Source of the DNA: Hysterangium stoloniferum
Taxonomy: Eukaryota; Basidiomycota; Agaricomycetes; Hysterangiales; Hysterangiaceae
Direction: 5' to 3'
Assembly (NCBI GenBank): GCA_015178975.1
Contig: WHVD01000009.1
Coordinates: 558,001-622,000, forward strand
DNA: 64,000 nt
A program made the position numbers and the translations under genes. Below the pieces are notes generated by a model. That model was not told where the DNA came from and did not search any database. It saw nothing but the letters and a program-made list of their open reading frames with translations. Position 1 is the first letter of the stretch; the number at the start of each line of letters is the position of its first letter. Positions 32,060 through 54,590 of this stretch are shown here, piece after piece.

Positions 32060-32200
32060 TTTGTGACGACGGTCACTTGTTGTGACGACAGTCACTGTTG
32101 TGACGAAGGTCACCATTGTGACGAATGTCACCGTTGTGACGAATGTCACCGTTGTGACGAATGTCACCGTTGTGACGAATGTCACCTTTTGTGACGAATA
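32060..32200. repeat. 18 bp minisatellite with palindromic GTGAC/GTCAC unit
   Basis: Tandem units TTGTGACGAATGTCACCG (18 bp) run across this stretch. Each unit contains the inverted pair GTGAC-gaat-GTCAC. It lies in a short CG-rich island inside an AT-rich LTR. Confidence 0.9.
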
Positions 32201-32937: not shown

Positions 32938-34091
32938 TGTCCATTTGGATGATTTGAACTGGGCTTGAATTGAATTGAGGGTTTACCACAGGCTGAGGTT
33001 GGAGGCAGTATGAAGCCAGGAAGTGAAAATAAAAGAGATGTGAGATAGAGGATCTGTGGTACTTGCCGATGCATCAGTAGATGGCTCTCCAAGTCCCCAG
33101 GGGGGCCTCTTAGCCAGAACATTCTTTAAGATACATTCCCCTGCAATATGCTATTTTTGATACCTCGTTAAGCACCATAATACAGATTTAGTTACATAGT
33201 CTGAAACCTCTAACAGGATGATCTATGACCTCATCATTGTCATACTCATAGGCATATTCAAGGTGCCAGGAGTGAGTATGAGAACCAAACTCTATTTGCT
33301 GACTGAATTAAAAATAGAGTTATGAACGGGGCCACAGTCGCAAGGGACTTCCATTATGTCTGCCTGCGCCATCTCCTAATTGACTCCCCAACATGTGGAC
33401 TGTTTGTGGGAAAACTGGTAATGAGGCTAGGCGTGAGTATGAGATCACTTTTTATCTTACATATTTCAAGGATTTTCCACCATCTTAATGAAGTTATCTG
33501 TTCTGAAAATGTACTAGTAATCGGTCTGAGTAAATAGAAGCAGATGGAGCAATTGACAGATGACAGTAGGATGGTTCGAAAGAATGGAAACATGGCGGAG
33601 CACCCACCCCCATCACGTGGTGGGTAGGAATGAATGCTCAGGTCCTTCTTGGAATGTAACCAATTTCAAAAGGGAAACAAGGTTTGATGGCAGTGCCTAC
33701 TACTCATGGGGGCCGTACGCAGTTTAACCTCTATCTGGTCATAAATGTTCCGGAATCGATCTCGATTATCAGTCGAAAAAGGGGGAAACAACTACTAACA
33801 AGGAGTTTTTTGAGGCATATTCAATCCTTTGGGAATGGTCTCAAAGATACAATCACACCATCTTCCAATCAGGTTCCCGATCTACTATGAATGGTAGATT
33901 GCCCACAACTGGACAATCTACATATAATAGAACCTTTTCACCGCTCCGCCCCCTTAACATTGCTTTAAAACATTCACCATCACTGAAACCTATGATGCAT
34001 GGCACTCAACTTCACCCATTCAGCACCGTCACTATTCAAGAAAACGGCGACGCCACATAGTGAGTCATGTTATCCTTGCTGCTGTTGCTAG
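32938..34091 (+). other. 5' part of host gene (paralogous to 18372-19512)
   Basis: The block is conserved with 18372-19512. The 287-nt exon at 33773-34059 is open and begins after a TATCAG acceptor. It encodes a segment with 'NKEFFEAYSILWEWSQRYNH' and ends 'QENGDAT' at a GTGAGT donor (34060). Sequence upstream of 33773 is similar between copies, but I could not assign exons in it with confidence. Confidence 0.6.
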
Positions 34092-34290
34092 GCATACAGG
34101 TTAGTGCCCAGAGTTTGGCGGGATTTGTCTGGTCGTAACAGTACCCTCCCTTTATGCTAAAGTCCCAAAGAGGCTCTAGGCATAGATAAGGTTCTTGTCG
34201 GCTACGTGCATGTGTCAAAAGTCATGTCAGTTACACGTATGTGTCAAAGAGTCATGTGATCTGGAAGGTAAGGTTCAAACACGGCGAGCC

Positions 34291-34298
34291 TATAAAAA
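34291..34298 (+). promoter_or_regulatory. TATA box of the G3 accessory gene
   Basis: TATAAAAA starts 58 bp before the ATG at 34349, the same layout as in G1 and G2. Confidence 0.65.
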
Positions 34299-34348: not shown

Positions 34349-34520
34349 ATGGGACCAAAACCAATGCCCAAACGAGCAATGCCAACCGCAGGGCCCTCCA
34401 CGGGCACTCCGTATCGGGCACCTTGGAGCGCGGCACAGTTAGTGCGGTGAGAAGAGCAGCACCGACTTCATGAAGAAGCAGAGAGGGAGGCCAGGGAGGC
34501 CGAGGAGGCCCTGGACAAAT
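34349..34520 (+). pseudogene. First exon of the G3 accessory (anti-pol strand) gene
   Basis: It reads 'MGPKPMPKRAMPTAGPS', then a Glu/Ala/Arg-rich helix 'HEEAEREAREAEEALDK'. A TGA at 34448-34450 interrupts it, probably from CGA. By position (after the 3' LTR and PPT, opposite to gag-pol) and composition it corresponds to exon 1 of the accessory genes in G1 and G2. It is truncated near 34520, where host intron sequence resumes. Confidence 0.6.
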
Positions 34521-37226: not shown

Positions 37227-37792
37227 TGTTAAGTGCCATGTCAGGAACTTATTCCGGAAACTATCGGAAAGTCACCGGGAAGTCAGAAACTCGTGGATAG
37301 GGTCAGGACGTCGGCTTCAGCTTATGTGCTGCGCCTCTACGCAAACGCTCAATGTCCTTAATTTCGGAAGTAAAACTTACAACAGAAGATATGGATATTC
37401 AGAGTTCCGAAGAGTTCCGGAAATCAAGCGTACAGAAAGACAGGAGGAGGAATAAGAAACTAAGTCGATATCAGATCTAAGGTAAAGTACAAATTCGCGG
37501 AAACTAATATAAGTCTACTCGTTATTGTACTACAAACTGAGACCATAATAAGACGGAAACGGAAGTGTTCTTAAAATGGAAATACAATAAGACATATTAG
37601 GGAGACAATATTCTGAAACAGGAATACAACAAACAAATGAGTGAATACTTGTCAACGGACAAATTACCAAATGTGGAACAAGGGAAGAACGCGGATGATA
37701 CGGTAACTGTGATGTTCCGTAGTCGGGGATCAGAAGTCGGAAGTCAGAGATCGGAAGTTGGATATTGAAACATCCGGGAACGGGTCGTAACA
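37227..37792 (-). mobile_element. 3' LTR of gypsy element G1 (family A)
   Basis: 566 bp, TGTTAAG...GTCGTAACA, preceded by (G)CTAGG (37221-37226), the target duplicate also found at 44532-44537. It is followed by GTACCCCCCTG, the complement of the PPT. Confidence 0.93.
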
Positions 37793-37897
37793 GTACCCCC
37801 CTGTTAGGCCGAAATCCCATAGAGGCGATTAGGTACTGAGTGATTGAAGCGACGGCTGATTATTATGTGTCGTGAAATTTACACAATTCTGGAGGTG

Positions 37898-38483
37898 TGT
37901 TAAGTGCCGTGTCGGGAACTTATTCCGGAACTATCGGGAAGTCACCGGGAAGTCGGGAACTACTAGATAGGGTCAGGACGTCGGCTTCAGCTTATGTGCT
38001 GCGCCTCTACGCAAACGCTCAATGTCCTTAATTTCGGAGGTGAGACTTATGATGGGAGTTATGGATATTCAGAGTTCCGAAGAGTTCCGAATATCGAGCG
38101 TACAGAAAGACGGGAGAAGGAATAAGAAACTAAGTCGATATCAGATCTAAGGTAAAGTACAAATTCGCAGAAACTAATATAAGTCTGCTCGTTATTGTAC
38201 TACAAACTAAGACCATAATAAGACGGAAACGGAAGTGTTCTTAAAACGGAAATACAATAAGACATATTAGGAAGGCAATATTCCGTAACAGGAATATAAC
38301 AAACAAATGAGTGAATACTTGTCAACGGACAAATTACCAAATGCGGAACAAGGGAAGAATGCGGATGATACGGTAACTATGATGTTCCGTAGTCGGAGGT
38401 CAAAAGTCGGAAGTCGGGGATCGGAAGTCGGGAGTGGGAGACCGGAAGTCGGATATTGAAACATCCGGGAACGGGTCGTAACA
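37898..38483 (-). mobile_element. Solo LTR (family A) nested inside G1
   Basis: 586 bp, flanked on both sides by AGGTG (37893-37897 and 38484-38488), a perfect target-site duplication. It sits between the G1 PPT and the accessory-gene promoter. It is closer to the LTR at 497-1081 than to the G1 LTR beside it, so it derives from another copy. Confidence 0.95.
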
Positions 38484-38511: not shown

Positions 38512-38519
38512 TATAAAAA
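38512..38519 (+). promoter_or_regulatory. TATA box of the G1 accessory gene
   Basis: TATAAAAA starts 56 bp upstream of the ATG at 38568. It is only 28 bp from the nested solo LTR, which has separated it from its original distance (about 128 bp) to the G1 LTR. Confidence 0.7.
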
Positions 38520-38567: not shown

Positions 38568-39448
38568 ATGTCCATTCGTCGGCCATTGTTCATCACTACC
38601 CCGGAAGATTCAGATACCGAAATTGCCATTCTACAAAAAATGTCGAAGGTCGCAGAACTTCAACAAAAACGACAAAGGATGGAGGAGTTGAAGTGACGAC
38701 AAGAGGAGGAGGAGAAGGCGTTGATGCAGGAGTTGAAAGATGCGGAAGATGCGGAAAAACGGGAGTTGGAGCGGGTGAAGGCAGAGGCGGAGGCTCAGAA
38801 AAGGAAGGAAGAGTTGGAAAGGTTACAGCGGGAAGCAGAGGTGGCGAAAAAACTCAAGGAGGTAAGGGAAGGAAAGGTAAGTTCCATCCATAGATTCCAT
38901 GATTTCAACTGATAACTATTGGGTCCAGCGAAAAGCCATGGAGGTGGAGGTAGAGGGAGAAGCTGGACCTTCAAGTCCTAAAGTAAGTACATCTACAAAA
39001 GACCGGTAATTGGTTAACTTCCAAAACTGAGGTGCCGAAAACGGATAGTACGGGCATGGAACTCCTCAAGGATACCGTTGACGTGTTAGTTTTTATCGGG
39101 ACGGAAGTTATGAAAATGCGAGATACACTAGATCGCCATAATGAAATCCAGGAAAAAGGTTTCCGTTCGTTGATCTGGAACTTCCGGAGGCAAAACGAAT
39201 TCCTGGAGAAGATAATGGTTAGCATCGGTGTGATTGCAGTATCCGAGAGATTTTCCGATAAGGCATGGGAACAGCCTAATGATCCGTTGGCGGAATGTGT
39301 CGAAAAAAGGTGGGAGTCAGGAAATGGGCCGGAAGAATCAGAGAGTGAGGATGAAGAGGTGCAGGATATGGTGGAAAGTGCGGAAATTGCTGATGAGACG
39401 GAAGTCGGGATGGAAAGTGGATTTGGGGTATCGGAGACTTTAAAATAG
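38568..39448 (+). CDS. G1 accessory gene, opposite strand to gag-pol, three exons
   Basis: Exon 1 (38568-38876) encodes 'MSIRRPLFITTPEDSDTEI' and a long Lys/Glu/Arg/Ala heptad-rich helix. Exon 2 (38929-38982) reads RKAMEVEVEGEAGPSSPK. Exon 3 (39032-39448) encodes a helical region ('DTLDRHNEIQEKGF', 'RRQNEFLEKI') and an acidic tail, ending with TAG. The introns (38877-38928, 38983-39031) are 52 and 49 bp with GTAAGT donors and are in phase 0. A TGA at 38694-38696 in exon 1 breaks this copy. The gene converges on pol, whose stop lies 100 bp further on. Introns on this strand show that it is expressed as its own mRNA and not as part of the retroviral-type genome. The function is unknown. Confidence 0.75.
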
Positions 39449-39547
39449 TCCTAAATATATATTTTTTGACTTGCAAAACCTAAAACAAGTGTGATATCGG
39501 AAGTGTCGGGAGTGTCGGAAACTGAACAGAAAGAAAACAGAAAAGGA

Positions 39548-42500
39548 TTAAAGTGATGATAAAGGTCCGGGTTTGTTTGGATAAGCTGTGTGGAAGTCAG
39601 TAACAATTTCCATAGCATGTCCAAGTTCCGTGGCCAATATCCATGAAGTTTCCTCGTCGGTACCTTCATAGCTTGCCCATTTGATTAAATAGAGCAATTT
39701 ACAAGTACGTCGGCGATTGTCGATTTTAGAATCCAAAATTTCGGAAACTTCAAATTCAGGTTCTCCATCAATGATGACCAGAGGGGACGGAGGTTGAATA
39801 TGTTCCGGGATTTTGTTAGGAACACAGGGTTCTAACATGGAAATGTGGAAAACGGGGTGAAACTGCTCGCATACTATCGGGAAGTCGGAGAGTCCATGAG
39901 AGTGAACCGGCTTGTGCTATAATTTCAAAAGGTCCTAAGAATTTCTCAGCGAGTTTTTTAGAAGGTCGGGTAGTACGGAAGAATTGAGCTTTTACAAAAA
40001 CCTGATCACCGATTTTAAAGTTAGGAGGTGGGATCCTGTTTTTGTCCGTGGAACGTTGATAATATTCCTGTGCGGAAGAAATAGCTTTCCAAAGTTCTTG
40101 ATGTAATTCGTCGAGGTCAGTAATAAATTCTTGAGCACAGACAGAAGCCAAATCTCATTCGGAATGTACAGTGAGATTCGGATTATAGCCTTTGTTGGTG
40201 AAGAAAGGAGATACACTGGTAGTTGCATTCGGAGAGTTATTGTAGGCGAATTCCGTGATCGGGAGAAGGGATTTCCAGTTGTCCTGTTGATAATTGCAAT
40301 AGATGCGGAGATATTGTTCCAATGTTTGATTTACACGTTCCGTTTGTCCATCACCTTCTGGGTGATATCCCGAGGTGAAGTGTAATTTCATGTTGAGGGC
40401 TTTTCCGAGGGCCTGGAAGAAATGGGAGATGAACTTGGAACCTCAATCGGAAGTTACATGAGACGGAACTCCGTGTTTGGAAAATACGTGAATAATGAAA
40501 AGTTCCGCTAATTGTAAGGATGTGATTGTATCATGAGTGGGTATGAAAATGCCTTGTTTCGAGAATTGATCCACAACAACTAGAATGGATGTAAAGCCTT
40601 CGGAAGTTGGGAGTTGTTCGATAAAATCCATGGAAATTGAATTCCAGGGTTTTTCCGGTATCGGGAGTTGCTTGAGAAGGCCATATGGCTTATGCCTCTG
40701 GGTCTTAGAGCATAAGCAGGTGGTGCATGACTTACAGAATTGGGTTATGAAATCTCGGAGGTTGGGCCAAGTATATTCTCTACGGATTAAACCAAGAGTA
40801 TTGTTAATGCCATAATGTCCGGAGATTGGATGATCGTGTTTATACTGAAGTACGCGGAGTCGGAGATTGTTGGAATCTGGAACGTAGATACGTCCATCGA
40901 GACGGATAAAACCTTGAGAGTCCTGTGACCATCGGGGTTGGTCCGGATTGTCAGGAACCTCTGGGTGTGGCTTGAGAACTGGATCGGAAGTGAGTGCGGA
41001 AAGGATATCTTGATGTAATTGCTCAATGTCCATAATCATGATGCTACACATAATTGGGTAGTAGAGGGAAGTTGCTCGGATAGATGCGGAAAGTTGTTGC
41101 GTTGTAAAAACCGGTTTTAAATTATGCGGATTAACAACGGCATAATTACTTTCCCCCTCTTTAGGATAGATGTCCCATCGTCGAGTCATGGCATCTGGCT
41201 TTCCACCAAGATGTCCGGATCGGAAACGGATAATCATGTTGAAAGCGGAAAGGAATTCAGACCAACGGGCCTGCCGGCGGGTTAAAAGTTTAGTGGTAGA
41301 AAAATATTCGAGATTTTTGTGATCGGTAACAACGTCAACAGGAGTTGAGGAACCTTCGAGATAATGGCGCCAATGTTTAAAAGCTTCAAAAATTGCCAAA
41401 AGTTCCTTATCATGAACGTCGTAGTTGAGTTCAGATACTGAAAGTGTCCGAGAAAGAAATGCGACCAGATGAATTTCACCATCGGAATCTTGAATGGAAA
41501 GAATCGGGGCAATTGCATAATTGGAAGCATCGGTTTCCACAATAATCGGAACATCAGGTTTCCAATGGGAAAGGATCGGGGCAGAAGTGAAAGCATTTTT
41601 TAAAGTCTGAAAAGCGGAGCGGCATTTGTCGTCAAAGACCCATGGTTGAGTTTTACGGGTCAGACAAGTGAGCGGTACTGTAATATCCGAGTAGTTCCGA
41701 ATAAAACGACGGTAAAAGTTGGTGAAACCTAAAAATGACTGAATATCCTTGACTTTCCGTGGTTTGGGCCAATCACGGACAACTTGAACTTTGGTTTCAT
41801 CCATACAGAGACCATCAGGTCCGATAATGAAACCTAAGTATTCAATAGAATCCATGTCAAAGTAGCATTTTTTACTGTTGGCGAAAAGACCATTTTTACG
41901 GAGTCTTCGGAAAACTTCACGGACTTGTTCGTCATGAAGAGCGGGATCCTCGGAAAATACCAAAATGTCATCCAAATAGACTATAACACATACATCAAGC
42001 ATGTCGGAAAATATATTGTTAACAAAACATTGGAAAGCGGAAGGGGCATTGGTAAGGCCGAATGGCATAACCAACCATTCAAAGGATCCATAGTGAGTCC
42101 GAAAAGCAGTTTTCCATTCATCGCCCTCGGCAATTCGGACCAAATGATAGGCATGTTTGAGGTCTATTTTGGTGTAGATCCGAGCTTTCCATGGGGCATC
42201 GAGTAATCGGTAACGAGTGGAAGTGGATACTTGTCTTTCCGTGTGATGGAATTTAATCCTCTGAAATCGACACAGAGTTGAAGGGAGCCGTCCTTCTTTC
42301 TGATGAAAAGGACGGGTGCTCCATACGGAGACTTTGAGGGACGGATAAAACCTATCGACAAATGTTCATCCAGGAACTCCCAAATAGACGAAAGTTCCGA
42401 TTGGGATAACGGGTAAATACATAGGTCCTAACGGAGGGTTTGAACCGGGCTCAATATCGATTTTTAAGTCGTAAGGCCTATGTGGTGCAAGCCGGTCAGC

Positions 42501-43198
42501 TTTTTGCTTACTGAAAATGTCCACGAAATCATGGTATTTCTCGGGAACTCCGTCCAGATCGGCTTTTAGCTCGGATAATTCTGGAGTCGCAAAACGTCCA
42601 GATGCTTCATCAACTTTTAAGCTGATTGAAAAACACTGCGAACCATCCAGTTTACTCGCCCTAACAAATGCCGAAGCGTTGATGAGAGATATTTTTGGAG
42701 GTGCGGAGGTTTCGGTAGAAGCCGCAGATGCCGTGGATGCCGAAAAGGCGTTGGCTGGAAAAGACGCTGCAGGAGGAAACGGAGTGTCGGGGATTCGGAA
42801 ATTAATACTGCCCAATACCCAGTCAATCAACGGATTATATCAGGTGAGCCAGTTGTATCCAAGAACTACCGAACAGCTAGAGTCCAACTGTGTTATAAAA
42901 AAAGTAACCGTCTGGGATGTTCCACAAGGGAACCGGATAGACATGTCGCAGGCTTGGGTAATTGCCATATTGCTAGTGCTGTCAAACAGACGCAAGGAAA
43001 TTGCGGGAACAGAATGGAGTTTCAGATTATGTTTCGTGGCAAAGGTGGTATCTACAAAACAGTGTGTGGAGCCGGAATCTATCAGAGCTCGGAACACTAA
43101 ATTTCCAAGAAAGTCAGAAACAAGTTTTACAAATAATGAATCGGGATTAGAGAGAGCGGACGTGTTGAGATGGATAACCTCAGAAACATGGAGAGAGT
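39548..43198 (-). pseudogene. G1 pol: protease, RT, RNase H, integrase, chromodomain
   Basis: On the minus strand: an aspartic protease ('ALIDSGSTHCFVD', about 43020), RT (42361-41700: '[19 protein letters not shown]', 'VIVYLDDILVFS'), RNase H ('VETDASNYA', 'YDVHDKELLAI'), the integrase zinc region, core ('DFIEQLP', 'GYHPEGDGQTERVNQTLEQY') and a C-terminal chromodomain (39838-39548). The frame is broken by TGA at 42840, 40443 and 40155, each where G2 has Arg, and by shifts near 42190 and 39850. It is inactive but well preserved. Confidence 0.95.
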
Positions 43199-44469
43199 CA
43201 ACGCAACCCTCTGTCCGTGCAGATTCCGGAGGGTTGCTTACTCTTTTTTCTCGGCTCCGTGGCGGGTTTTTCCTTGGACGTTGTAGTCGTAGTGGAAGTT
43301 GCCATGTGGGCCTTGGAAGAGTTAGATTTAATGGTACAGTCGGAAACCTTGTGTCCACCTTTCCCACAGAAAAGGCAGAGGTCGTTGTCCATACATCGTT
43401 GTTTCTCCTTCAGGGTGAGTTTACCGTTGGTACCCAACAAATGGGAAATGTCGGGTTTGTCGGAAGTGGACTGTTTTTCCTTGTTGGATTTCTTGTCTTT
43501 CTTTCTGTCAGAGTTTGATTTGCCAGTATTAGTGCCAGAGTTGCCGGTGTTATTGCCTGAGTTGTTGCCAGAAGACTTGCTAGTCGACGCCTTGTTGTTC
43601 TGAGAACGTTCCGTCAGATTTTCTCAAGAAACCTCGGCTTTTCGTTCCCAATAACGGGCGTCAGATGTTTGAGCTTTCATCCGCATGAGTTGAAGAGTTT
43701 TCGGCTTTCCATCTTTGCAGATTTCGTCTTTCAGGCGTGACGGAAGTCCCATATAGAAATGGTGCCTGAGGGTGGAATCGTCCCATCCACATCGTGCAGC
43801 GAGGGTATTGAACTTGATGAGATAATTGGAAACTCGTTGATTGTCCTTCATCTTGAGCATCATTAATTCATTTTCTGCTTCGCCGGTTTGATCATAAGGT
43901 CCGAAATTAGTCTCCAGTTCTTCCACAAAAGCATCCCAGTCGTCGAGCCATACGGGTGTCTCGTCGGATATTCCAGATAGTCCGGGTTCGAACCAATCTT
44001 GAGCGGTATCCTTGAGATAAGAGAGCGCGAAATTGACTTTTCGACTGTTGGATTTAAAAGCATTGGGTCGATCACAGAAACTGAAATGGCATTGGAGAAG
44101 GAAATTCTTCAATTTTTTCGGATCCTTGCCAGTAAATGGTTCAGGTTCTTTGACTCCGGTGCGGGAAGATTCTTTACTATCCTCAGCAGATTTCAAATAG
44201 TCAGCGAATTTCACGATGGAGTTGATAAACAACATTTCAGTCGGTTCGTCGGAAGATTTCTTTTTCGATGTCTCCGGCTGATCTTCTGCTTCGTTGTCGG
44301 AAGTGTGGGGAACATTGGTGTCCTTTGTTACCTTGGTAACCTCCTCGGTAACTTCTTCGACTGAAGCTGATGTTGTCGGCTGAAAAGGGGTTTTGGATTG
44401 AGTGGTGTAAAGTTGCAATGGGGATTGAAGTTGGGATGGTCCTTCGGCAGCTTTGCGTTTGGGACCCAT
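43199..44469 (-). pseudogene. G1 gag with CCHC zinc knuckle
   Basis: It opens at the ATG 44469-44467. The N-terminus is Ser/Thr/Glu rich, the capsid-like part includes 'FALSYLKDTAQDWFEPGL' and 'DDWDAFVEELETNFGPYDQT', and it then reaches TGA at 43624-43626. The same frame continues through an Asn/Ser/Lys-rich spacer to a zinc knuckle 'CLFCGKGGHKVSDC' (about 43345) and ends at about 43198. The zinc knuckle after the stop shows that the TGA is a later lesion. Confidence 0.92.
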
Positions 44470-44503
44470 GATGAGCGAGTCCCAGAGTTGAGATCTGATA
44501 TAC

Positions 44504-44531
44504 TGTTAAGTGCTGTGTCAGGAACTTATTC
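44504..44531 (-). mobile_element. 28 bp remnant of the G1 5' LTR
   Basis: Only the first 28 bp of LTR family A (TGTTAAGTGCTGTGTCAGG...) is present. It is followed at once by the target duplicate (G)CTAGG (44532-44537) that matches 37221-37226. The rest of the LTR, about 540 bp including the end that should abut the target, is missing. Confidence 0.9.
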
Positions 44532-44532
44532 G

Positions 44533-44792
44533 CTAGGGCAGAAACCATTTCGTCATCAGATGGGCACTGGTTGGACAATGAAGCAAACACTATTGATGAG
44601 CAATGTGTTCTTGACACCTTGGAGTCAGCCTCAGACTATGAGCGAGGGCTTGAATGCTTGGATGAAAATGGAAAGGCAATTGTGAGGAAGCTGAGGGAGT
44701 GGGCTGGTGACTTGGTGAAGGTTGCAGGAAACAAACAGAAATGTACAACTTTCTTAATGCCTGAGAAAAGCAAATTACTAATAACTCTGTGA
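44533..44792 (+). pseudogene. Second part of the ORF split by G1
   Basis: It continues the frame that stopped at 37226: AGG|GCA joins as 'LAR-AETISSSDGHWL'. It encodes an acidic, Leu-containing sequence and ends with TGA at 44790-44792. Confidence 0.55.
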
Positions 44793-45485
44793 AGATTCCA
44801 TATACGAGAAAGGACCTAAAGCACCTAAGGAGGATATCTGAAAACTATTAATTATACCAAATTCTAATATACTCTAAAGGTCATTTAAACATCTGAGATG
44901 TGATTCAAACATGATTTGGTTTTTAAAACTTTTTGAAAGTTTTAAACTCTCTCATACATTACAAACTAAAGAATCTTTCCGGACATGAGTAGACAATAAA
45001 AAAAATTAGTAGTTTGAAACACTAATACTTTTAAAAAATAGATACCTTTAGATAGTCCATTCCATGCATATGTATATCATTGGCACCTCTAAATACATAT
45101 GTATTACTTCGGAATGGATCTGTTAATCTGAACAGATTTCTACTTGATTCAACATACCCAGAATATATAGGGGGTTTTACTTAATAAAGACAGCTGTGAT
45201 ATGAAAAATTTCCAATAATATTTTACATATTTTACATGGAAATAACTACATTTCAACTTTTAAAAAACAAAGTACTAATAAAAGTATTAGTAGGCATCTG
45301 TAAAAGGAAGGAAATTATATACAATGGAATTTGTTAAATAACTATGGGTTGTATAAGATGTAATATGGAGAACTATTTCTGATGGTTATTTTTTGATGAT
45401 ATAATTGTTTCAGAATAGATATCACTATTTAAAGATGGAGTTTTGTAAAAATAAGACTTTTATTAGTAAATATTTGAGATTATAG
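44793..45485. other. AT-rich spacer within the pogo-like element
   Basis: No gene is seen. It precedes the transposase frame and may contain its 5' untranslated region or an intron; a TATAG lies at 45482-45486. Confidence 0.4.
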
Positions 45486-45486
45486 T

Positions 45487-46823
45487 AATTATAAACACCC
45501 TCCTAAGAAGAAATCTGATAAGCCAGTCACTGCTCGTACTTTTACAAAGAAAGAAAATGCTACATTGGCTCAGCGCATAGAAATCCTTGATTGGCACTAC
45601 AAAAATGGCCAAAACCAATCAAAGATGGCTCAGCATTTCAATCCAATCTACCCAAACCTTAAGATCAAACAGCCATTAGTCTCAGCATGGATCAAAGAAG
45701 AAGCAAAATGGCATGGGCTTTGGGAACAGGCAAACCACCAAAGTGACCAGATGATGAAACGAGCTCAACAGACTGAGCATCCGGAGGTTTCTGAAATGAT
45801 GTATTTATGGGTTTTGAAGGCCATGGGTGATGAAATTCTGCTTACTGGGGAAGTCCTTTGCCAGAAATGGAACCAGTTTGCAGACTTGGTGGGTATTCCC
45901 GAAGATGAGAGACTGACATTGAGCAATGGTTGGTTGGCACGTTTCAAGGACAGGAATGGCTTGAAGGAGATGAAGAGACATGGGGAAGCTGCATCAGCAC
46001 ATGCTGACACTGTGGAGGAGAGGGAGCGAAAATGGATATCTTTAACATGGATGAAACAGGTCTTGTTTATGGGTACATACCTATTTCCTTATTTCTACCT
46101 CCATATCTGACTCCAATGCATAGACTTGTACCAGACAGAGGCCTGTCAGATCATAAACAATCAGGAGTCAAAAGCAAAAAGCTCAGGTTGACATACACAT
46201 TCACAACAAATGCTGATGGGTCTGAGAAACTCCCAGCTTTCATCATTGGGAAAGCAGCACAGCTACGAGCTTTCAACAAGAAGACCGGAATCCAATTGGG
46301 GTTTTACTACCAAAATAATGCAAAAGCTTGGATGACTGCACAACTCTATCAAGACTGGATTCAGCAGTGGGATCACGAACTTGGAGACAAAAATCGAAAA
46401 ATACTTCTTCTTCAAGATAACTTTTCTGGCCACATTGTTCCTACCAACCTTCAAAACATCCGAGTTGAAAACTTCGAGCCAAACCTCACTGCACATGTCC
46501 AACCAAATGACCAAGGTATCATCAGATGCTTCAAAGCCCACTACCGTACCAGGTTCATTCAACAGGCTGTTGATCATTATGACGAAGGTATAACACCAGC
46601 TCAAATCTATGACATCAATCAGTTGCAAGCAATGCGGATAGCAGATGCTTCTTGGCATGATGTCGACACAACGACCATTCGCAATTGCTGGTGCAAAGCA
46701 GGAATCTTACCTGAAATAAATCCCACTATGTCTCACCCTTTAATTCCAATTACTTCCCCATCACATGCAAATTCAAAGCAATTCTGGGCACATTCAAATG
46801 GCAGCTCTGCCTCAAAGCAATGA
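45487..46823 (+). pseudogene. pogo/Tigger-like DDE transposase
   Basis: The first part (45510-46020) carries a CENP-B/pogo-type helix-turn-helix DNA-binding region ('TLAQRIEILDWHYKNGQN', 'QPLVSAWIKEEAKW') and the second HTH ('NGWLARFKDRNGL'). The catalytic part has 'FNMDETGL' (first Asp), 'LLLQDNFSGH' (second Asp) and 'VQPNDQGIIRCFKAHY' (third Asp), the DDD triad of this group. A 51 bp intron is likely at 46073-46123. Near 46025 the DNA-binding part runs into the catalytic part out of frame, with about 15 residues of the usual linker missing, so this copy is inactive. The right end is removed by G2. Confidence 0.88.
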
Positions 46824-46879
46824 CGAGTCCGAAAGAAACTGTTATAACTGACTTCTTTCAGAAATCATAGATGGATCAC

Positions 46880-47585
46880 TGTTAAGAACTGAAAACTGAC
46901 TAATGTCGGTGGCTGACAGGGACCGATCAGAAGGACTTGGCTTCAACTTATGTGCTAAAATATCCGTAGGGTGTCCTTAGATTTCGGGCGGGCAAAGACT
47001 AATCCTAAAGAGCTCCTTTCGGCGAGATACCGATCAGAACCAAAGGACAAGTCGAGTGTCGGGCCAAGGGGTCGGGGCCGGGAGTGGGCGAGCGCATGCG
47101 AAGGCAGATGGGGGGATTCTTAGTGTGAGACTGTTACAGATGTATGAGGGTATTCTGAGTCGATATTCTGATTTCCTAGTAACTACAACTACAGCGGGTT
47201 CATAAACAAGTAACAGGCATCTAGAAAATACTAATGGGGAGAAGGGCGGAAAATGGCATTAACAATAAGCTTGACTAGGAACGGGAAGTTTATGATTAGT
47301 TCGGAGGCCGATGATAACCGAGAGCGGAATTACGATAAAAGGAAATAGTTCAAGGACTACAAATATAGATAGACATATGTGAAACATAAGATTGAACGGA
47401 TCAACATAATAAAAGGGGCGTATCAAAAGTTTGACCAGACAATACGAGTTATTTTGATGTGGGTGTAAATGGAGTTTGATCTTCGCGAAAACATACGTCA
47501 GCTTCGGGGCCTGAGATGGTGACTTGAAAACATTGATAAGTGGCGATAACCTCGGGACCGATAGGGTTGCGACACGGTCGTAACA
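46880..47585 (-). mobile_element. 3' LTR of gypsy element G2 (family B)
   Basis: 706 bp, TGTTAAGAACTG...GTCGTAACA, paired with 53867-54590. The flanking base groups ATCAC and GTTAT do not match, so the original target duplicate has been lost, probably on the right where another LTR now abuts. Confidence 0.93.
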
Positions 47586-47702
47586 GTATCTCCCCTTTTG
47601 GCCAAAATCCCAAGGAGGCCGAAAATCTAGATCCCGTACGTAAAAACTTGTCGGGTACGGCTGGGTGTGTCAAAACATCATGTGACTCGGCAAAATTTTA
47701 CA

Positions 47703-47710
47703 TATAAAAA
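47703..47710 (+). promoter_or_regulatory. TATA box of the G2 accessory gene
   Basis: TATAAAAA starts 57 bp before the ATG at 47760, which itself sits in a good Kozak context (CCACCATGA). Confidence 0.75.
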
Positions 47711-47759
47711 TTCGAGGGGTCCTGGCGCTTGAAATTCTACTTCTCTTCCCTTAACCACC

Positions 47760-48777
47760 ATGACCATAGGCTTGGGGTCGAAACCCTTCCCGGTTAGGTT
47801 AACAGTCGCGCCCATGTCGGTCCCGAGTGGTATGGTGAACACGCAGGAGCATCGGCGTATACTCAAGCAGAAGAGAAAGGCGCGTGAAGAGGAGGAGCGG
47901 AAGGAGAAGGAGGAGTTGGTGGCCATCAAGGCCGAGGAGAAGAAACAGGCGGCAGAAGAGGCCACACGCAAGCACTGGGAAGCAGTGCTTGCAAAGAACA
48001 AGCAACAGGAGGCCGATCGGGCGTGGGAGGAGGCGACGAAAAAGAAGCGGGAGGGAAAGGTAAGTTGGCTCTGGTATCTTTGCGAACCTTACTGACATAT
48101 ATTTGTTAGCGCAAGGCTGCGACACCTTCAGAGTCCGATGACGAAGAGGGAGAGGAGGACGAGGAGGATGCACTGGGGCCATCGAGCCCCAAGGTGGGTT
48201 CGGTTTCCCTAAATAAAAACCCTAAATAATTTTCCTATAGAAACAAAAGCAGGCCCCCAAGGCGGGGCCCGAAAACAACCCTAAGTGCAATCGGTGCACG
48301 AAACGGGGTCAAACCTGTCATCCCTGGGCCAATGGTCGGGGCCGCACCTGTCAAGAGTGTGCCGATCAGAAGCTTGGGTGTGTCTTCCCGGGGGCCGATG
48401 GATCGTTCCAGGAGTGACAGGCCGATGCTCTAGAAGAGCAAAACCACCTTATGCGGACATACTTCTCGGAGACAACTCGGTTCCGATACGAGACTCTGCG
48501 ACATCAAGGGCTCATGACCGAGCAGTTGCGACTTTTGGGCATCGGGCTGGAGAAGCAGACCAGCGTTATCGAGTCTCTTGGAGGTCAGCTTGAGCAATAC
48601 TTGGAAGTCTCGAGTTGTGATGGAATTGGGCACGAGATTGGGGTGTCGGAAAAGGTCGGTGGTGCGGTATCGGTGGCTGTCGGTGCAGGGGAGTTCAGAG
48701 GCTGGAGAGGAGGGAGAAGTTGTAGAGGAAGAAACTTAGATAGTAAATATATCGGTTTTTTTTTTCTTTTCTTTTAA
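47760..48777 (+). CDS. G2 accessory gene, opposite strand to gag-pol, with Zn2Cys6-like cluster
   Basis: Exon 1 (47760-48059, 100 codons) has a Pro/Val-rich start and a long Glu/Lys/Ala coiled coil. Exon 2 (48110-48193, 28 codons) starts RKA and ends GPSSPK with an acidic middle. Exon 3 (from 48241) contains C-x2-C-x6-C-x10-C-x2-C-x6-C ('KCNRCTKRGQTC' ... 'CQECADQKLGC'), the spacing of the fungal Zn2Cys6 DNA-binding cluster. It then has a TGA (48415-48417) and, in the same frame, a helical region ('LEEQNHLMRTYF', 'LEKQTSVIESLGGQ') up to 48777. Introns of 50 and 47 bp lie at the same places as in G1. The pol stop is 71 bp beyond the end. Nuclear DNA-binding or element-regulating roles are inference. 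Confidence 0.75.
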
Positions 48778-48847: not shown

Positions 48848-51800
48848 TTAAGAATTGAGAGGACCGGGTTTGTTCGGATAAGCTTGGTGAAACCCTAAAA
48901 CGATTTCCGAGGCATTACCGAGCTCAGTAGCTAGGATCCATGAAGTTTCTTCATCTGTACCTTCATAGCCAGCCCATTTGACCAAATAAAGTAATTTGCA
49001 TGAGTGTCGGCGATTGTCGATTTTTGACTCTAGGATCTCTGATATCTCGAATTTGGGTTCCCCATCAATAATCACGGGTGGAGGTGGTGGTTGTATGCGA
49101 TCCGGTATACTGTTAGGAACACAAGGTTCTAACATAGATACATGAAATACTGGGTGCACTGCACACATGTTGTCGGGGAGCCGAAGCGTCCATGAAAGCA
49201 TGCCGGCTTGTGCTATAACTTCAAAAGGACCTAAATATTTTTCAGAGAGCTTCTTAGAGGGTCTAGTAGTTCGGAAAAACTCAGCTTTAACAAATACTCG
49301 GTCTCTGATCTTAAAGTCAGGAGGCGGAAGTCGGTTCTTATCCGCAGACCGTTGGTATCGTTCTTGAGCCATTGCAATAGTTTTACAAAGTTCTTGATGT
49401 AGCTTGTCAAGGTTTATAACAAAGTCTTGAGCATGGGCGGATGCGAGATCGCGTTCCAGGTGAATTGCGATGTTGGGGTTGTAGCCTTTATTTGCGAAGA
49501 AAGGCGAAATGCCAGTAGTGGCATTTGGTGCATTGTTATATGCGAATTTGGCTAGCGGTAATAGTGATTTCCAATTGTCTTGTTGATAGTTGCAATAGAC
49601 ACGGATGTATTGTTCCAAGGTTAGATTCATACGTTCGGTTTGGCCATCGCCTTCCGGGTGATAGCCGGAAGTGAAGTGTAGCTTCATGTCTAGTGCTTTC
49701 CCGAGTGACCTAAAGAAGTGAGAGACAAACTCGGATCCGCGATCGGATGTGACATGCAATGGAATGCCATGCTTGGAAAATACATGGGTGACGAATAGTT
49801 CAGCTAACTGTACAGATGTTATCGTGTCATATGTTGGAATGAAAATACTTTGTTTTGTGAGCCGATCCACAACAACTAGGATTGCTGTGTGACCTTCGGA
49901 TGCCAGTAGGTGCTTGATGAAATCCATAGAAATCGAGTTCCAAGGTTTTTCCAGTATCGGTAATTGTTTGAGTAGGCCATATGGTTTGTGTCGCTGTGAT
50001 TTAGAGCATAAACACGTAGTACAGGATTTACAATAGTGCTTAACAAAATCTCAGATGCCAGGCCATGTATATTCTCTTCTAATGAGTGAGAGGGTCTTAT
50101 TGAGGCCGAAATGTCCCGAGATTGGGTGGTCGTGCTTATGTTGTAGGATTCACAGACGAAGGGTGTCGGAGTCCGGTACATAAATGTGATTGTCAAGTCT
50201 AATGAAACCTTGTGAGTCTAATGACCATTGGGGTTGATCGGGGTCGGACGGGTTATCGAGGTGTGCTTTGGTGACTGGGTCTAATGGAATTGCCAATAGA
50301 ATGTCTTGATGTAATTTTTCGGTATCCATAAGGATAACACTTCGCAAGACTGGATGAATGAGGTAAGTGGCTCGGATAGACGCGGACAGTTGTTCCGATG
50401 AAAACATACGCTTGAAATTATGCGGATTAACTGTGGCGTAGTTGCTACTCCCCTCTTTAGGATAGACGTCCCATCATCTAGTCATAGCGTCGGGTTTTCC
50501 ACCAAGGCGGCCGGGGCGGAACCGAATTACCATGTTGAAAGCAGAGAGGTATTCGGACCATCGAGCTTGTCAACGGGTGAGAAGTTTTGTGGTTGAAAAG
50601 TAAACTAAATTTTTGTGGTCTGTAATAACATCTACCGGGTGGGCCGAGCCTTCCAAATAATGTCGCCGTGTCATGAAAGCTTCAAATATTGTGAGTAGTT
50701 CCTTATCGTGAACATCATAGTTGAGTTCGGGTGCCGAAAATGTGTGAGACAGAAAAGCTACTGGGTGTACTTCACCATTGGTGTCCAGAATGGACAATAT
50801 CGCAGCAAGCGCATAGTCCGAGGCATCAGTTTCCACGATGAGTTGAATGTCGGGCTTCCAGTGCGACAAAATAGGGGCAGATGTAAACACACTTTTCAAC
50901 TCCTGGAATGCCGATTGGCATTCTTTGGAGAAAATCCACGGGGCATCTTTGCAAGTAAGACGAGTGAGCGGAACGGTAATTTTTGAGTAGTTGTGAATGA
51001 AACGACGATAAAAATTGGCGAAGCCTAAAAAGGATTGAATATCCTTAACCTTTCAGGGTTCTGGCCAATCTTGAATGACTTGAATTTTAGAGTTGTCCAT
51101 GCGGAGACCGTCAGGTCCCATCATAAAACCTAAATATTCAACTGTGTCAACATCAAAAGAACATTTTTTACCATTCACAAAAAGACCATGTTTTCGGAGT
51201 CTTTGGAGAACTTCACGAACGTGTTTGTCATGAAGTGTAGGATCTTTGGAGAATATGAGGATGTTGTCTAAGTACACAATGACAAAAACGTCGAGGAGGT
51301 CAGAAAAAACATCGTTGATAAACCATTGAAAGACCGATGGAGCGTTGGTGAGGCCGAAAGGCATTACTAACCATTCAAAAGAGCCATAGCGAGTGCGAAA
51401 AGCCGTTTTCCATTCGTCACCTTCGGCGATCTGAACCAAATGATAGGCATGCTTGAGATCTATCTTTGTATAGATTCGGGCCTTCCGAGGGGCATCGAGT
51501 AAATCGGAGATTAGTGGTAATGGGTACTTGTCTTTTCGAGTGATCGCATTTAGTCCTCGAAAGTCAATGCAAAGTCGAAGGGAACCGTCTTTTTTCCGAA
51601 CAAATAGGACAGGGGCTCCATAAGGAGACTTTGAGGGTCGGATAAAACCTATAGCCAAATGTTTGTCCAAGAAATCTCAGATAGCCGATAATTCGGACTG
51701 CGAGAGAGGATAAACCGGGCCTAGGGGCGGATGTGAACCATCTTCAATATCAATTTTCAAATTGTAAGGCCTGTGAGGGGCGAGTCGATCTGCTTTTTGT

Positions 51801-52470
51801 TTACTGAAGACATCTGCAAATTCATGGTATTTTTTGGGAACACCTTCCAAATCTGTGATCGGTTCGGCCACCGGGGATGCAAAGCGACCGGTGACTTTGT
51901 CAACTTTAAGATTGACTGTAAATACTCGGGAGCCGTCCAACTCGATGGCTCTCATAAAGGCTGCGGCGTTTATTAGAGAGACGGGCGGCGGAGAGCTCGG
52001 ATTTGCCATGGGGGCTGGAGGTGCTGTAGAGGCCATATTTGCTGAAACAGGCAGAAATGGACCAGTCATATCGGGCGCTGACGGAGTTCGGAAATGGATA
52101 CTGCCCAATACCCAATCAATCAACGGATTGTAGCGGGTGAGCCAGTTATGTCCTAGAACCACGGAGCAACTCGGGTCCAACTGTGTTACAAAAAACGTAA
52201 CTGTCTGAAAGGTTCCACACGGGAACCGAAGTCGGAGTTCACAGGCTTGTGAGATTACAGAGTTTGAGGTACCATCGAAGAGTCAGAGCAGAATCAGATC
52301 TATTGCATAGGTTTTTAACTGATTTTTTCGTGAAAAACCTGTATCTATAAAACAATGGGTTGAACCTGAATCTATGAGAGCTTGAAAAGTGAGGCTCCCA
52401 AGAGGTTCTGAAGTAAGATTTATGAACAAGGAATTAGGATCATACAAGGTGGATGTGTTAAGGTGACAAT
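48848..52470 (-). pseudogene. G2 pol: protease, RT, RNase H, integrase, chromodomain
   Basis: On the minus strand: protease 'ALIDSGSTHCFIDTGF' (about 52390), RT (51670-51053: '[19 protein letters not shown]', '[12 protein letters not shown]' with Asn in place of the second catalytic Asp), RNase H ('VETDASDYALAA'), integrase (49927 onward: 'DFIKHL', 'GYHPEGDGQTERMNLTLEQY') and a chromodomain ending at 48848. In-frame TGA lie at 52283, 51677, 51053, 50570, 50474, 50150 and 50051, almost all where G1 has Arg. The YLDN change would also abolish RT activity. The last 359 codons (49927-48848) are intact. Confidence 0.95.
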
Positions 52471-52499
52471 TTTCCGGTGTGCGAGGAGATTCAATGCAA

Positions 52500-53828
52500 C
52501 TCTCCAAATGCACGGAATCCAGAGAGTTGCTTAATCTTTTTTCGACTCGGCAGCCGGCTTGGCCGGTGGTGAGGTCGTGGCCGTATTGGGCAATTGGGCT
52601 TTTGAGGCTTTTGGGCATGCAGCGACTCAGTGTCCGGGATCTGCACACAACAAACAAAGGTTGTTGTCCATTCAGCATTGCTTTTCCTGTGGTAGGAGCT
52701 TGCCATCGGAGCCGAGTTTGCCAGTTAAGTCGGATTTGTCTTTGTCTTGAGACTTATTCGACTGTTTTCCCTTGCCTTTTTTGTCGTTAGCCCCTTTGTT
52801 TTCGGACTTCTTATCAGAGGTCGAGTTGCCACTGTTGTTGGTGGTTTGATTACCAGACTTGTTGGCGTTCTTATTGTCCGACGATTTCTTGTCCGAAGGG
52901 TTTTCGCGACTAATTTCCAAACGTTGTCCCAATATCGGGCATCTGCGTTTTGGGCTTTCAGATGCATGAGAGGGAGGGTCTTCAGCTTGCCGGTCTCTCC
53001 TTTGGAAACTTCATCTTTGAGGCGAGATGGAAGGCTGGAGTAAAACTGGTAATGGAGGGCCGAATCGCCCCAGTCGCAATGCACGGCGAGGTTGTTGAAC
53101 TGGACGATGTAATCGGTGATGCGCTGAGTGTCTTTCATTTTGAGATTAGAAAGTGCGGTTTCGGCATCGCCGGTCTGGTCGTAGGGACTGAAGTTGGTTT
53201 CGAGTTCCTCAACAAAGGCATCCCAATCGTGAAGCCAATCGGGGTCTTCGGAGGTGAGGCTAGTGAATGCGGGTTCAAACCAGGCTGCTGTGGAATCCTT
53301 AAGGTATGAGAGTGCAAAGTTTACCTTTCGGTCATCCGTTGCGAATGCAGCCGGGCGGTCCCGAAAGTTGAATCGACATTGCATAAGAAATGTCGGCAAT
53401 TTCTTTGGGTTTGAGCCAGTGAATGGCTTGGGTTTGTTGACTCGGGTTTGCCCAGGTTCCTTTTCCTTGATATTGCTTCTAAGGAATTCGTTAAGGGATC
53501 CTAGAGTACCTGAAAACAATTCCCATGTCTCTTCAGGGTCGAGAGCCGGTTTCTTTTTTGCGGACTTCTTGGAGCCACTAGCCTGAGGTTGGTTGCCATC
53601 CTCGGGTTCGTGTTCCAAAACTGGTTGATTGTTAATCTCTTCAGTTGCTTCGGGTTCGGTTGCTTCAGTTACTTCTTCAGCATCGCCGGTAATCTCCACA
53701 AAGTGAGATTCTTTGGAGGTTTCTGGTAGCGGGGTTCTCTGAGTAGCTCGGGCTGTATACAGGAAAGAAGACTTGAGAGTGGAAGATTCTGCTTCGCCGC
53801 CTGGCTTGGCATTTCTTCTCAGAGGCAT
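52500..53828 (-). pseudogene. G2 gag with CCHC-type knuckle
   Basis: It opens at 53828 ('MPLRRNAKPGGEAESS') and shares with G1 gag the core 'KVNFALSYLKDS...AWFEPAF' and 'WDAFVEELETNFSPYDQTGD'. A frame shift near 52930 separates it from the Lys/Asn/Ser-rich spacer (52932-52672) and the knuckle 'CLLCADPGH' (about 52650). TGA codons lie at 52672-52674 and, just after the His of the knuckle, at 52627-52629. Confidence 0.92.
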
Positions 53829-53866
53829 GATTAAACAGAAAATGTGAGTGTGAAATCAGAATATAC

Positions 53867-54590
53867 TGTTAAGAACTGAAAACTGACTAATGTCGGTGGC
53901 CGACAGGGACCGATCGGAAGGACTTGGCTTCAGCTTATGTGCTGCGCCCTCGCAAATATCCATAGGGTGTCCTTAGATTTCGGGCGGGCAAAGACTAATC
54001 CTAAAGAGCTCCTTTCGGCGAGATACCGATCGGAACTGAAGGACAAGTCGAGTGTCGGGCCAAGGGGTCAGGGCCGGGAGTGGGCGAGCGCACGTGAAGG
54101 CGGATGGGGGGATTCTTAGTGTGAGACTGTTACAGATGTATGAGGGTATTCTGAGTCGATATTCTGATTGCCTAGTAACTACAACTACAGCGGGTTCATA
54201 TACAAGTAACAGGCGTCTAGAAAATACTAATGGGGAGAAGGGCGGAAAACGGCATTAACAATAAGCTTGACTAGGAACGGGAAGTTTATGATTAGTTCGG
54301 AGGCCGATGATAACCGAGAGCAAAATTACAATAAAAGGAAATAGTTCAAGGACTACAAATATAGATAGACATATGTGAAACATAAGATTGAACGGATCAA
54401 CATAATAAAAGGGACGTATCAAAAGTTTGACCAGACAATACGAGTTATTTTGATGTGGGTGTAAACGGAGTTTGATCTTCGCAAAAACATATGTCAGCTT
54501 TGGGGCCGATGGTTTCCGAGATGGTGACTTGAAAATGTTGATAGGTGGCGATAACCTTGGGACCGATAGGGTTGCGACACGGTCGTAACA
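53867..54590 (-). mobile_element. 5' LTR of gypsy element G2 (family B)
   Basis: 724 bp, pair of 46880-47585. Between it and the gag ATG (53828) lies a 38 bp leader holding the primer-binding site. The two LTRs differ by several indels (for example around 46950 versus 53938, and 47505 versus 54510), so G2 is not young. Confidence 0.93.

Follow-up and report, generated by a model that had tools for sequence, protein, structure and literature searches.

An antisense gene with introns and a six-cysteine cluster, kept by selection in three Ty3/gypsy families of Hysterangium stoloniferum

Three families of Ty3/gypsy retrotransposons (G1, G2 and G3) of Hysterangium stoloniferum carry a real antisense gene of three exons, kept by selection. 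The gene product is approximately 290-350 aa in length; besides a six-cysteine cluster and NLS-like basic clusters, it contains a long, charged helical or coiled-coil region and a second helical part. We give a probability of about 0.6 to the reading that this is a nuclear zinc-cluster regulator owned by the element and expressed from its own promoter, somewhat like HBZ of HTLV-1. The evidence for the gene was stronger in the remaining genome than in the window (the whole 64 kb stretch of DNA that was analyzed), where the copies of all three families are broken. Elsewhere in the genome, uninterrupted genes were found in 4 of 36 aligned rows for G1, 5 of 16 for G2 and 1 of 7 for G3. The genomic copies analyzed were among the best-scoring search candidates, i.e. 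not a random sample, and the G1 alignment leaves out three of 38 loci (L048, L054 and L062) that carry large insertions.

The antisense gene in the window

The features are listed with window coordinates, strand (. for none) and basis.

33500..34140,.: G3 3' LTR region of a truncated copy, left boundary not determined (LTR comparison)
34199..34216, +: G3 CGGCT...TGTGTC upstream element (motif search)
34291..34297, +: G3 TATA box, 58 bp before the ATG (8/8 rows)
34349..34519, +: G3 exon 1, truncated, TGA at 34448-34450 (copy comparison)
37229..37792,.: G1 3' LTR, gag-pol on the - strand (repeat D1, LTR-LTR blastn; ends TGTTA...TAACA by eye)
37807..37826, +: G1 motif GGCCGAAATCCCATAGAGGC beside the polypurine-tract complement (same place in G2 and G3)
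37853..37871, +: G1 CGGCT...TGTGTC upstream element (motif search of the 64 kb)
37899..38483,.: solo LTR of G1 type between the CGGCT...TGTGTC element and the TATA box (sequence comparison)
38512..38518, +: G1 TATA box, 56 bp before the ATG (compared with copy L037)
38568..38876, +: G1 exon 1, charged, probably coiled-coil, TGA at 38694-38696 (copy alignment)
38877..38928, +: G1 intron 1, 52 bp, GTAAGT...CAG, phase 0 (copy alignment)
38929..38982, +: G1 exon 2, RKA...GPSSPK (copy alignment)
38983..39022, +: G1 intron 2 remnant (acceptor and exon 3 start with the cysteine cluster deleted)
39023..39448, +: rest of G1 exon 3, to TAG (copy alignment)
39548..44505, -: G1 gag-pol, interrupted frames (Pfam, scan without 39548-40445)
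46880..47585,.: G2 3' LTR (93.5% identical to the 5' LTR at 53867-54590)
47600..47619, +: G2 motif beside the polypurine tract, common to G1-G3 (upstream comparison)
47658..47671, +: G2 CGGCT...TGTGTC upstream element (motif search)
47703..47709, +: G2 TATA box, 57 bp before the ATG (15/16 rows)
47760..48059, +: G2 exon 1 (family model)
48060..48109, +: G2 intron 1, 50 bp (GT and AG in 16/16 rows)
48110..48193, +: G2 exon 2, RKA...GPSSPK (family model)
48194..48240, +: G2 intron 2, 47 bp (GT and AG in 16/16 rows)
48241..48739, +: G2 exon 3, six-cysteine cluster CNRCTKRGQTC..CQECADQKLGC, TGA at 48415-48417 (family model)
48848..53855, -: G2 gag-pol, interrupted frames, convergent with the antisense gene (Pfam)

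The first-pass annotation described a three-exon gene opposite to gag-pol, between the pol stop and the 3' LTR, in G1 and G2. This location and strand stand, but no window copy is uninterrupted. The phase 0 introns of both families were borne out by the copy alignments, and so were an exon 2 beginning with RKA and ending with GPSSPK in both. The limits of exon 3 had to be corrected. In G1, the start formerly placed at 39032 is not the acceptor of the family; the window copy has, besides the stop in exon 1, a deletion of approximately 230 bp that took away the beginning of exon 3, and in the 35 other aligned G1 rows this stretch holds the true acceptor and the region of the cysteines (mutated in some rows). 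In G2, the family model puts the end at 48739 instead of 48777, a position probably reached by following a shifted frame; past the cysteine cluster, exon 3 probably encodes the second helical part. For G3 only a first exon had been recognized, which is all that the window copy has, but the seven other fetched genomic copies have three exons, with introns at matching places. The six cysteines of exon 3, more informative than any other part of the protein, had gone unnoticed.

In the G1 copy of the window, the solo LTR at 37899..38483 has inserted into the promoter region. It is 89% identical to the G1 3' LTR and 98% to 498-1081, has AGGTG on either side (target-site repeats by eye), and the flank is contiguous in other copies.

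The G1 gag-pol has the Pfam domains gag, protease, RT, RNase H and integrase zinc domain. The chromovirus label given before to these elements is plausible but borderline: after the integrase of G2, the only one covered by the Chromo scan (the G1 counterpart region lies outside it), the Chromo domain reached 22.7 bits (E 9.4e-5) against a cut-off of 25.1. A Tf2-type SH3 domain in G2 was above its own cut-off (64 bits).

Conservation and selection across genomic copies

An LTR end was located upstream of the antisense gene in all 38 G1 genomic loci and the pol end downstream in 36 of them. The gene thus lies where antisense accessory genes of the aORF-3R type lie, between pol and the 3' LTR and opposite to gag-pol, and, again as in this type, it has been kept in many copies by selection at the protein level. 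The splice sites of G1 intron 1 were also conserved (GT in 34 of 36 rows, AG in all 36).

We counted the substitutions by codon position, excluding columns with CpG in any copy and leaving out the window rows of G1 and G3 (the window G2 row was kept). Shared substitutions at positions 1/2/3 were 24/15/73 in G1 (present in at least three copies), 3/5/23 in G2 and 11/7/28 in G3 (both in at least two copies). This unevenness was far above chance (p 3e-13, 4e-6 and 1e-4, respectively). The singletons were 45/48/52 in G1, with no third-position preference, and 19/14/23 in G2; both G1 counts exclude the sites with a second base in exactly two copies (6/7/23). Besides, shared gaps had lengths divisible by three in exons (9 of 10 cases) but seldom in introns (3 of 18; Fisher p 0.0003). 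The third-position bias of shared substitutions and the exon gaps in threes indicate that selection has kept a spliced protein gene on the antisense strand. Values of dN/dS between uninterrupted copies were 0.17-0.43 (six G1 pairs) and 0.24-0.86 (ten G2 pairs). The proposal of a separate spliced transcription unit is supported by the conserved GT and AG, the intron gaps free of frame and the exon gaps in threes, patterns from which we infer that the gene is transcribed and spliced.

No processed (intron-less) copies were found in a search with the G3 junction peptide, in which 150 of 1091 candidates were scored; three candidate processed G3 copies that were fetched had their introns. Two long open frames (C93 and C222) were rejected as intron-less copies, their introns merely happening to stay in frame.

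The upstream region

A TATA box lies 56, 57 and 58 bp before the ATG in G1, G2 and G3, respectively, as expected from the conserved promoter proposed before, and TATAWA was found at this position in 37 of the 38 genomic G1 copies. It is located inside the element, approximately 120-150 bp beyond the LTR end and not within the 3' LTR. Matches to CGGCT...TGTGTC on the + strand of the window were limited to three, and each of G1, G2 and G3 has one of them in its upstream region. The upstream rate was computed without two of the 38 G1 loci (L056 and L057). The conserved TATA and the upstream elements suggest that the antisense gene would have its own promoter. We also considered the CGG triplets of the LTRs as binding sites and rejected them: the LTRs of G1 were enriched (z 4.2 and 5.0), but pol was enriched to the same extent (z 5.4 and 5.7), the LTRs of G2 were weakly enriched (z 1.6 and 2.1) and those of G3 were not (0.1).

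The protein and its cysteine cluster

Fungal Zn2Cys6 clusters are defined by the spacing C-x2-C-x6-C-x5-12-C-x2-C-x6-8-C. Exon 3 opens with C-x2-C-x6-C-x9/10-C-x2-C-x6-C, which has this spacing, as do 29 of 36 G1 rows, 16 of 16 G2 and 6 of 8 G3. In the six frames of the window the pattern had a single match, at G2 exon 3, and the six cysteines were invariant when five copies, drawn from the three families, were aligned. The partial Pfam matches at the cysteines were mainly to Zn_clus (PF00172), none to zinc knuckles, and where Zn_clus matched it scored 6.8-17.0 bits, below the Pfam cut-off of 21. PF00172 did not match the two full-length proteins scanned, nor P0004 (E up to 1) or P0006; it was also without a match in 3 of the 10 pieces of exon 3 and in 8 of the 10 half pieces. 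The first cysteine triplet aligned to positions 16-32 of the profile (nine rows from seven copies) and the second to 2-25 (five rows, from P0003, P0005, P0007 and P0008), with one row of copy L011 aligning the second triplet to 20-33. All these rows are sub-threshold, and they hint weakly that the halves of the cluster may be swapped in order.

At the border of exons 2 and 3, basic NLS-like motifs were seen by eye in all three families. Neither bZIP nor TRP28 gave a Pfam match in the two proteins scanned, and NCBIfam gave, apart from weak noise, a coiled-coil match below the cut-off in P0003. Sequence comparison with solved structures found nothing significant, and neither did a structure search, in which PPR1 at rank 2 (E 5.8) is no evidence.

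Proteins sharing the layout of the product were found in Dendrothele (P0004-P0008) and Lentinula (P0003) in a search that scored 7989 candidates; in Dendrothele, proteins with weak similarity occur in multiple copies. Some of the Dendrothele relatives carry the database label Zn(2)-C6 protein. The AlphaFold2 model of P0004 had a confident helix at 65-159; at low confidence it also had a pair of short helices in the cysteine region and a helix at 244-299. Scans of IMG/VR confirmed no relative.

Proposed function and alternative explanations

In the mechanism that we propose, the three-exon accessory gene between pol and the 3' LTR belongs to the element in each of the three related families, and would be transcribed in the direction of pol from a TATA promoter of its own, immediately internal to the 3' LTR. 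The introns would stay in the replicating copy because the element RNA comes from the opposite strand, and they would therefore not be spliced from it. The product would bind zinc and act in the nucleus as a dimeric DNA-binding regulator of its own element, with the CGGCT...TGTGTC sequence found upstream of the gene in all three families as candidate target. More tentative, and less probable than not, is a broader version in which a gypsy lineage extended through mushroom-forming fungi would carry an antisense, intron-bearing Zn2Cys6 factor with swapped halves, binding its own upstream sites of CGGCT...TGTGTC type, an independently evolved counterpart of retroviral antisense regulators like HBZ.

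The same gene structure and selection would fit a cysteine protein with a role on RNA or within the particle (nucleic-acid chaperone, RNA export, packaging) or one that counters host silencing. The Zn_clus scores below cut-off are in line with such a role, and so is the fast change of the protein (G1 and G2 are approximately 30% identical, against 75% in pol), as counter-defence proteins often change fast. We consider it rather unlikely, given the NLS-like motifs of the three families, cysteines spaced as is usual in the DNA-binding clusters of fungi, and partial matches mainly to Zn_clus with none to zinc knuckles. It is less probable still that the antisense RNA itself matters, with the protein secondary, by pairing with genomic RNA and feeding RNA silencing or dampening expression. 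The transcript would complement the 3' part of the genomic RNA, and the available part of a review raises the idea for plant antisense genes (PMC7264820), but a role of the RNA alone would not preserve the codon-position pattern, gaps in multiples of three in the exons, the frame across introns or six cysteines, and selection at the protein level speaks against it as sole function.

Host genes of fungi typically have introns, and a domain resembling a zinc cluster is also common among them; two host database proteins were found (annotated only as hypothetical), as would be expected of a host gene captured recently and carried as passive cargo. However, the three families have in common the place, the intron positions and the upstream elements at approximately 30% protein identity, which indicates that the gene is old in the elements; selection during amplification and the at least 150 places listed in the genome for each of three exon 3 queries also make capture very improbable. 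As to chance open frames in decayed sequence, the broken state of all three window copies could suggest them, but selection and splice-site conservation across copies speak against them. On the opposite strand of the ten uninterrupted copies each frame is broken by 3-14 stops, and open stretches do not exceed 156 aa; together with the codon-position and gap patterns, this rules out chance ORFs.

The element-owned regulator is a clear protein hypothesis, with a metal-cluster motif, a candidate DNA site, evidence of selection and many natural copies, and can thus be tested by ordinary biochemistry. By placing the gene on the other strand, an element with an RNA intermediate can hold on to introns in the long term, and the antisense product may let the element regulate itself. 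If the Dendrothele relatives prove to be element-borne, the counts of transcription factors in mushroom genomes would be inflated by such genes.

Comparison with known systems

The product resembles the fungal Zn2Cys6 proteins (PF00172; GAL4, PPR1) in cysteine spacing, neighbouring coiled coil and partial profile matches; it differs in scoring below the Pfam cut-off, in its apparently (weakly) swapped halves and in having the cluster in the middle of the protein. HBZ is spliced and is a bZIP protein. It resembles the G1-G3 gene in being antisense, opposite to gag-pol near the 3' LTR and a nuclear regulator (a role putative here), but the G1-G3 product had no bZIP match in the two proteins scanned. 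HBZ of HTLV-1 is mentioned in the available text of PMC11963269, and that of PMC7264820 locates the HTLV antisense promoter in the 3' LTR, whereas the G1-G3 TATA is inside the element, approximately 120-150 bp past the LTR end.

The first-pass annotation considered a spliced antisense gene of this kind in fungi not well described, which is too strong. Genes in this position and orientation have been reviewed for plants, and according to the review Grande gene23 is reported to have its own promoter and a nuclear product (PMC7264820, portions available). The portions available of PMC7264820 and PMC11963269 call the role of antisense accessory genes in LTR retrotransposons an open question. As described there, the plant aORF-3R genes (Grande gene23, RIRE2, PvRetro13, Retand TRP28) have different domains (TRP28, SMC-like). 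Neither paper uses the word "zinc" or "intron" in its main text. In fungi, brtn of the Boty-like gypsy elements of Botrytis cinerea (Zhao 2011, Virology 417:248, as cited in the available parts of PMC7264820, PMC8365987 and PMC4227169; BRTN is also named in that of PMC5987419) is, by these descriptions, a Ty3/gypsy gene in antisense between pol and the 3' LTR, like that of G1-G3. It differs in its ascomycete host and, in a comparison made by description only, is cited in those parts with no mention of a zinc cluster, introns or a promoter element. Antisense accessory genes were thus already known (Grande, Retand, Boty brtn), and the G1-G3 gene is a new variant among them.

Elements in the window and copies of the antisense gene

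We have analyzed three Ty3/gypsy families (G1, G2 and G3) that have gag-pol on the minus strand and an antisense gene on the plus strand, between the 3' LTR and the pol stop. The assembly holding the window is fungal and comprises 111 Mb, and PMC7550596 lists Hysterangium stoloniferum as ectomycorrhizal. G1 and G2 are Ty3/gypsy elements in which Pfam finds minus-strand domains of gag, RT, RNase H and integrase, the protease domain being found only in G1. The two LTRs of G2 are 93.5% identical. The genes and the LTRs in and around G1 are located as follows:

34349-34519, plus strand, antisense gene of G3 (truncated exon 1)
37229-37792, 3' LTR of G1, from LTR comparison
37899-38483, solo LTR within G1, separating the TATA box from the motifs next to the 3' LTR, flanked by AGGTG repeats (repeats seen by eye)
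38568-39448, plus strand, antisense gene of G1
near 44504-44531, 5' LTR of G1, only a stub, located by eye
from 47760, plus strand, antisense gene of G2

Positions 1-1081 are the end of another G1-type element (minus-strand gag at 1-498, then a G1-type LTR at 498-1081 that is 98% identical to the solo LTR). The LTRs at 30180-30918 and 59627-60158 are G2-like and G1-like, in opposite orientation. Units of 18 bp (GTTGTGACGAATGTCACC-like) are repeated in tandem at 32061-32204, and past the truncated 5' LTR of G1, at 44531-46900, plus-strand ORFs resemble by eye a DNA transposon that encodes a helix-turn-helix domain.

The gene layout reported by the first-pass annotation is present in the window, but all the window copies are broken. 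In that of G1, exon 1 is interrupted by an in-frame TGA, and about 230 bp found in other copies are missing at the intron 2/exon 3 border. In that of G2, a TGA interrupts exon 3 and the frame changes late in the gene; the family model moves its end from the proposed 48777 to 48739. The first exon attributed to G3 is indeed kept, although truncated and carrying a TGA. By eye, C-to-T change at CpG appears dominant in the decay of copies of all three families, giving many TGA stops.

Beyond the window, 38 G1, 15 G2 and 7 G3 loci were fetched. The three-exon model was fitted to 36 rows of G1 (the window copy and 35 genomic ones, excluding three loci with large insertions), 16 of G2 (the window copy and 15 genomic ones) and 7 of G3, genomic only; it was uninterrupted in 4, 5 and 1 of them, respectively. 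Both introns are in phase 0 in every family and measure 46-65 bp, except for one shortened to 27 bp and a 40-bp remnant in the window copy of G1. All four splice sites are kept in 16/16 G2 rows. In G1, GT is found in 34/36 and 36/36 rows and AG in 36/36 and 33/36 (introns 1 and 2), one of the AG misses being the window copy; in G3 the first GT is kept in 6/7 and the other three sites in 7/7. A CTRAY branch site is regular in intron 1 of G2 (16/16) and in both G3 introns (7/7), but not in the G1 introns (8/36 and 6/36) or in intron 2 of G2 (0/16). An LTR end lies upstream in 38/38 G1 loci (184-186 bp from the ATG in 33, by the match used) and the pol end downstream in 36/38, beginning 83-103 bp past the gene match in 34 of these.

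Searches of the genome with three exon 3 proteins found at least 150 places each (the best 150 of 353, 651 and 1305 candidates); all scored places were filled, so these copy counts are lower bounds. At least 21 G3-type copies share one identical score and an open frame of 170 aa spanning exon 3, and for at least 10 of these a contig ends less than 6 kb away. Such copies probably arose very recently and interrupt the assembly.

Selection on the coding frame

Substitutions were counted only in columns never holding CpG. Those shared by at least three copies (G1) or at least two (G2, G3) have passed through active elements, whereas singletons, found in one copy, are mostly later decay. Shared substitutions at codon positions 1/2/3 numbered 24/15/73 in G1, 3/5/23 in G2 and 11/7/28 in G3, far from even use (p 3e-13, 4e-6 and 1e-4). 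The singletons of G1 (45/48/52, p 0.55) and G2 (19/14/23, p 0.29) showed no departure from it. G3 is represented by only 7 diverged copies; there the singletons had the same third-position excess (21/16/58, p 1e-8) and the contrast with shared sites was absent (Fisher p 1.0). Shared gaps were multiples of three in 9/10 cases in exons against 3/18 in introns (p 0.0003), and singleton exon gaps in 12/34. The dN/dS of intact copies, a check proposed in the first-pass annotation, was 0.17-0.43 in 6 G1 pairs and 0.24-0.86 in 10 G2 pairs, and the opposite strand had no frame comparable to that of the antisense gene. Taken together, these results indicate a spliced gene whose protein was required, or at any rate retained, while the elements amplified, and we consider the existence of this conserved, spliced antisense gene nearly certain.

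Upstream region

The distance from TATA box to ATG is 56 bp in G1, 57 bp in G2 and 58 bp in G3, with TATAWA kept near this place in 37/38, 15/16 and 8/8 rows. A motif adjacent to the polypurine tract, about GGCC-AAATCCCA--GAGGC, appears at the same place in all three families, its loose core in 33/38 G1, 16/16 G2 and 8/8 G3 rows. CGGCT followed by TGTGTC within 2-12 bp has three plus-strand matches in the window, all in the three upstream regions, and a single minus-strand match, within G1 pol; this rarity is descriptive, since the pattern was picked after viewing the sequences. Its exact form is found in 17/38, 10/16 and 5/8 rows, or 34/38, 16/16 and 8/8 when CpG decay is allowed. In G1, shared changes affect 0.054 of the upstream sites against 0.281 of third codon positions, with upstream singletons at an ordinary level (0.181).

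The protein and its relatives

The region encoded by exon 1 is charged, with many E, K and R residues. Exon 2 is short and starts with RKA in G1 and G2, as had been claimed, but with CKA in G3. At the exon 2/3 border there is a basic run (SPKKPK, SPKKQK and PQKKARK across the families) that by eye looks like a nuclear localisation signal. Exon 3 opens with C-x2-C-x6-C-x9/10-C-x2-C-x6-C in 29/36 G1, 16/16 G2 and 6/8 G3 rows, the two G3 rows without it being the truncated window copy and one with a stop and a frameshift. The pattern has a single match in the six frames of the window, and all six cysteines are invariant across five aligned copies. This spacing is that of fungal Zn2Cys6 clusters.

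No protein scanned scored above the cut-off for Pfam Zn_clus (best 17.0 against 21 bits), and for several the profile was not reported at all. Below the cut-off, 9 rows from 7 copies matched the first cysteine triplet to the second half of the profile, and 5 rows from 4 proteins of Dendrothele and Lentinula matched the second triplet to its first half; in one row (L011) the second triplet matched the second half. Partial matches in crossed order weakly suggest a cluster whose halves may be swapped relative to the Zn2Cys6 profile, and the protein is not assigned to PF00172.

The protein database contains two H. stoloniferum proteins similar to the G2 gene. Beyond these two host models, a profile search found, among the 7989 candidates scored, only a Lentinula protein (P0003, E 2.2) and a Dendrothele one (P0004, E 2.8), which taken alone are not significant. 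With hhalign, the profile matched P0004 with a probability of 96.6 across the cysteine region. At least four further proteins of the same Dendrothele species are related to P0004 (70-80% identity), and they share its layout: a charged N-terminus, a KRKA-like motif, six cysteines, a helical part and an acidic tail, the first two cysteines being missing in P0006. In the AlphaFold2 model of P0004 (overall pLDDT 64.9), the helix at 65-159 is confident, and confidence is low for the short helices at the cysteines and for another helix at 244-299.

Between G1 and G2 the accessory protein is only about 30% identical, against 75% from RT to early integrase and 57% in gag, indicating that it evolves fast. 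The best reading, to which we give a probability of roughly 0.6, is that the product would be a zinc-cluster protein that regulates the element from within the nucleus; the main alternative is that it acts at the RNA level or in counter-defence.

Comparison with known antisense genes

For plants, PMC7264820 reviews antisense genes located between pol and the 3' LTR, describes their function as unknown, and gives Grande gene23 a nuclear location and its own promoter. The available text of PMC11963269 describes antisense TRP28 genes of Retand elements, with suspected DNA binding. Among fungi, Boty carries brtn (Zhao 2011, as cited in passages of PMC7264820, PMC8365987 and PMC4227169), and BRTN is named in an excerpt of PMC5987419. 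No zinc-cluster gene lying antisense in a gypsy element of a basidiomycete was found among the matches listed for antisense or accessory LTR-element genes, zinc clusters, Boty, and binuclear clusters with transposable elements (titles and abstract openings, most subscription papers lying outside the search). Given the plant and Boty precedents, the gene described here is therefore new as a variant and not as a kind.
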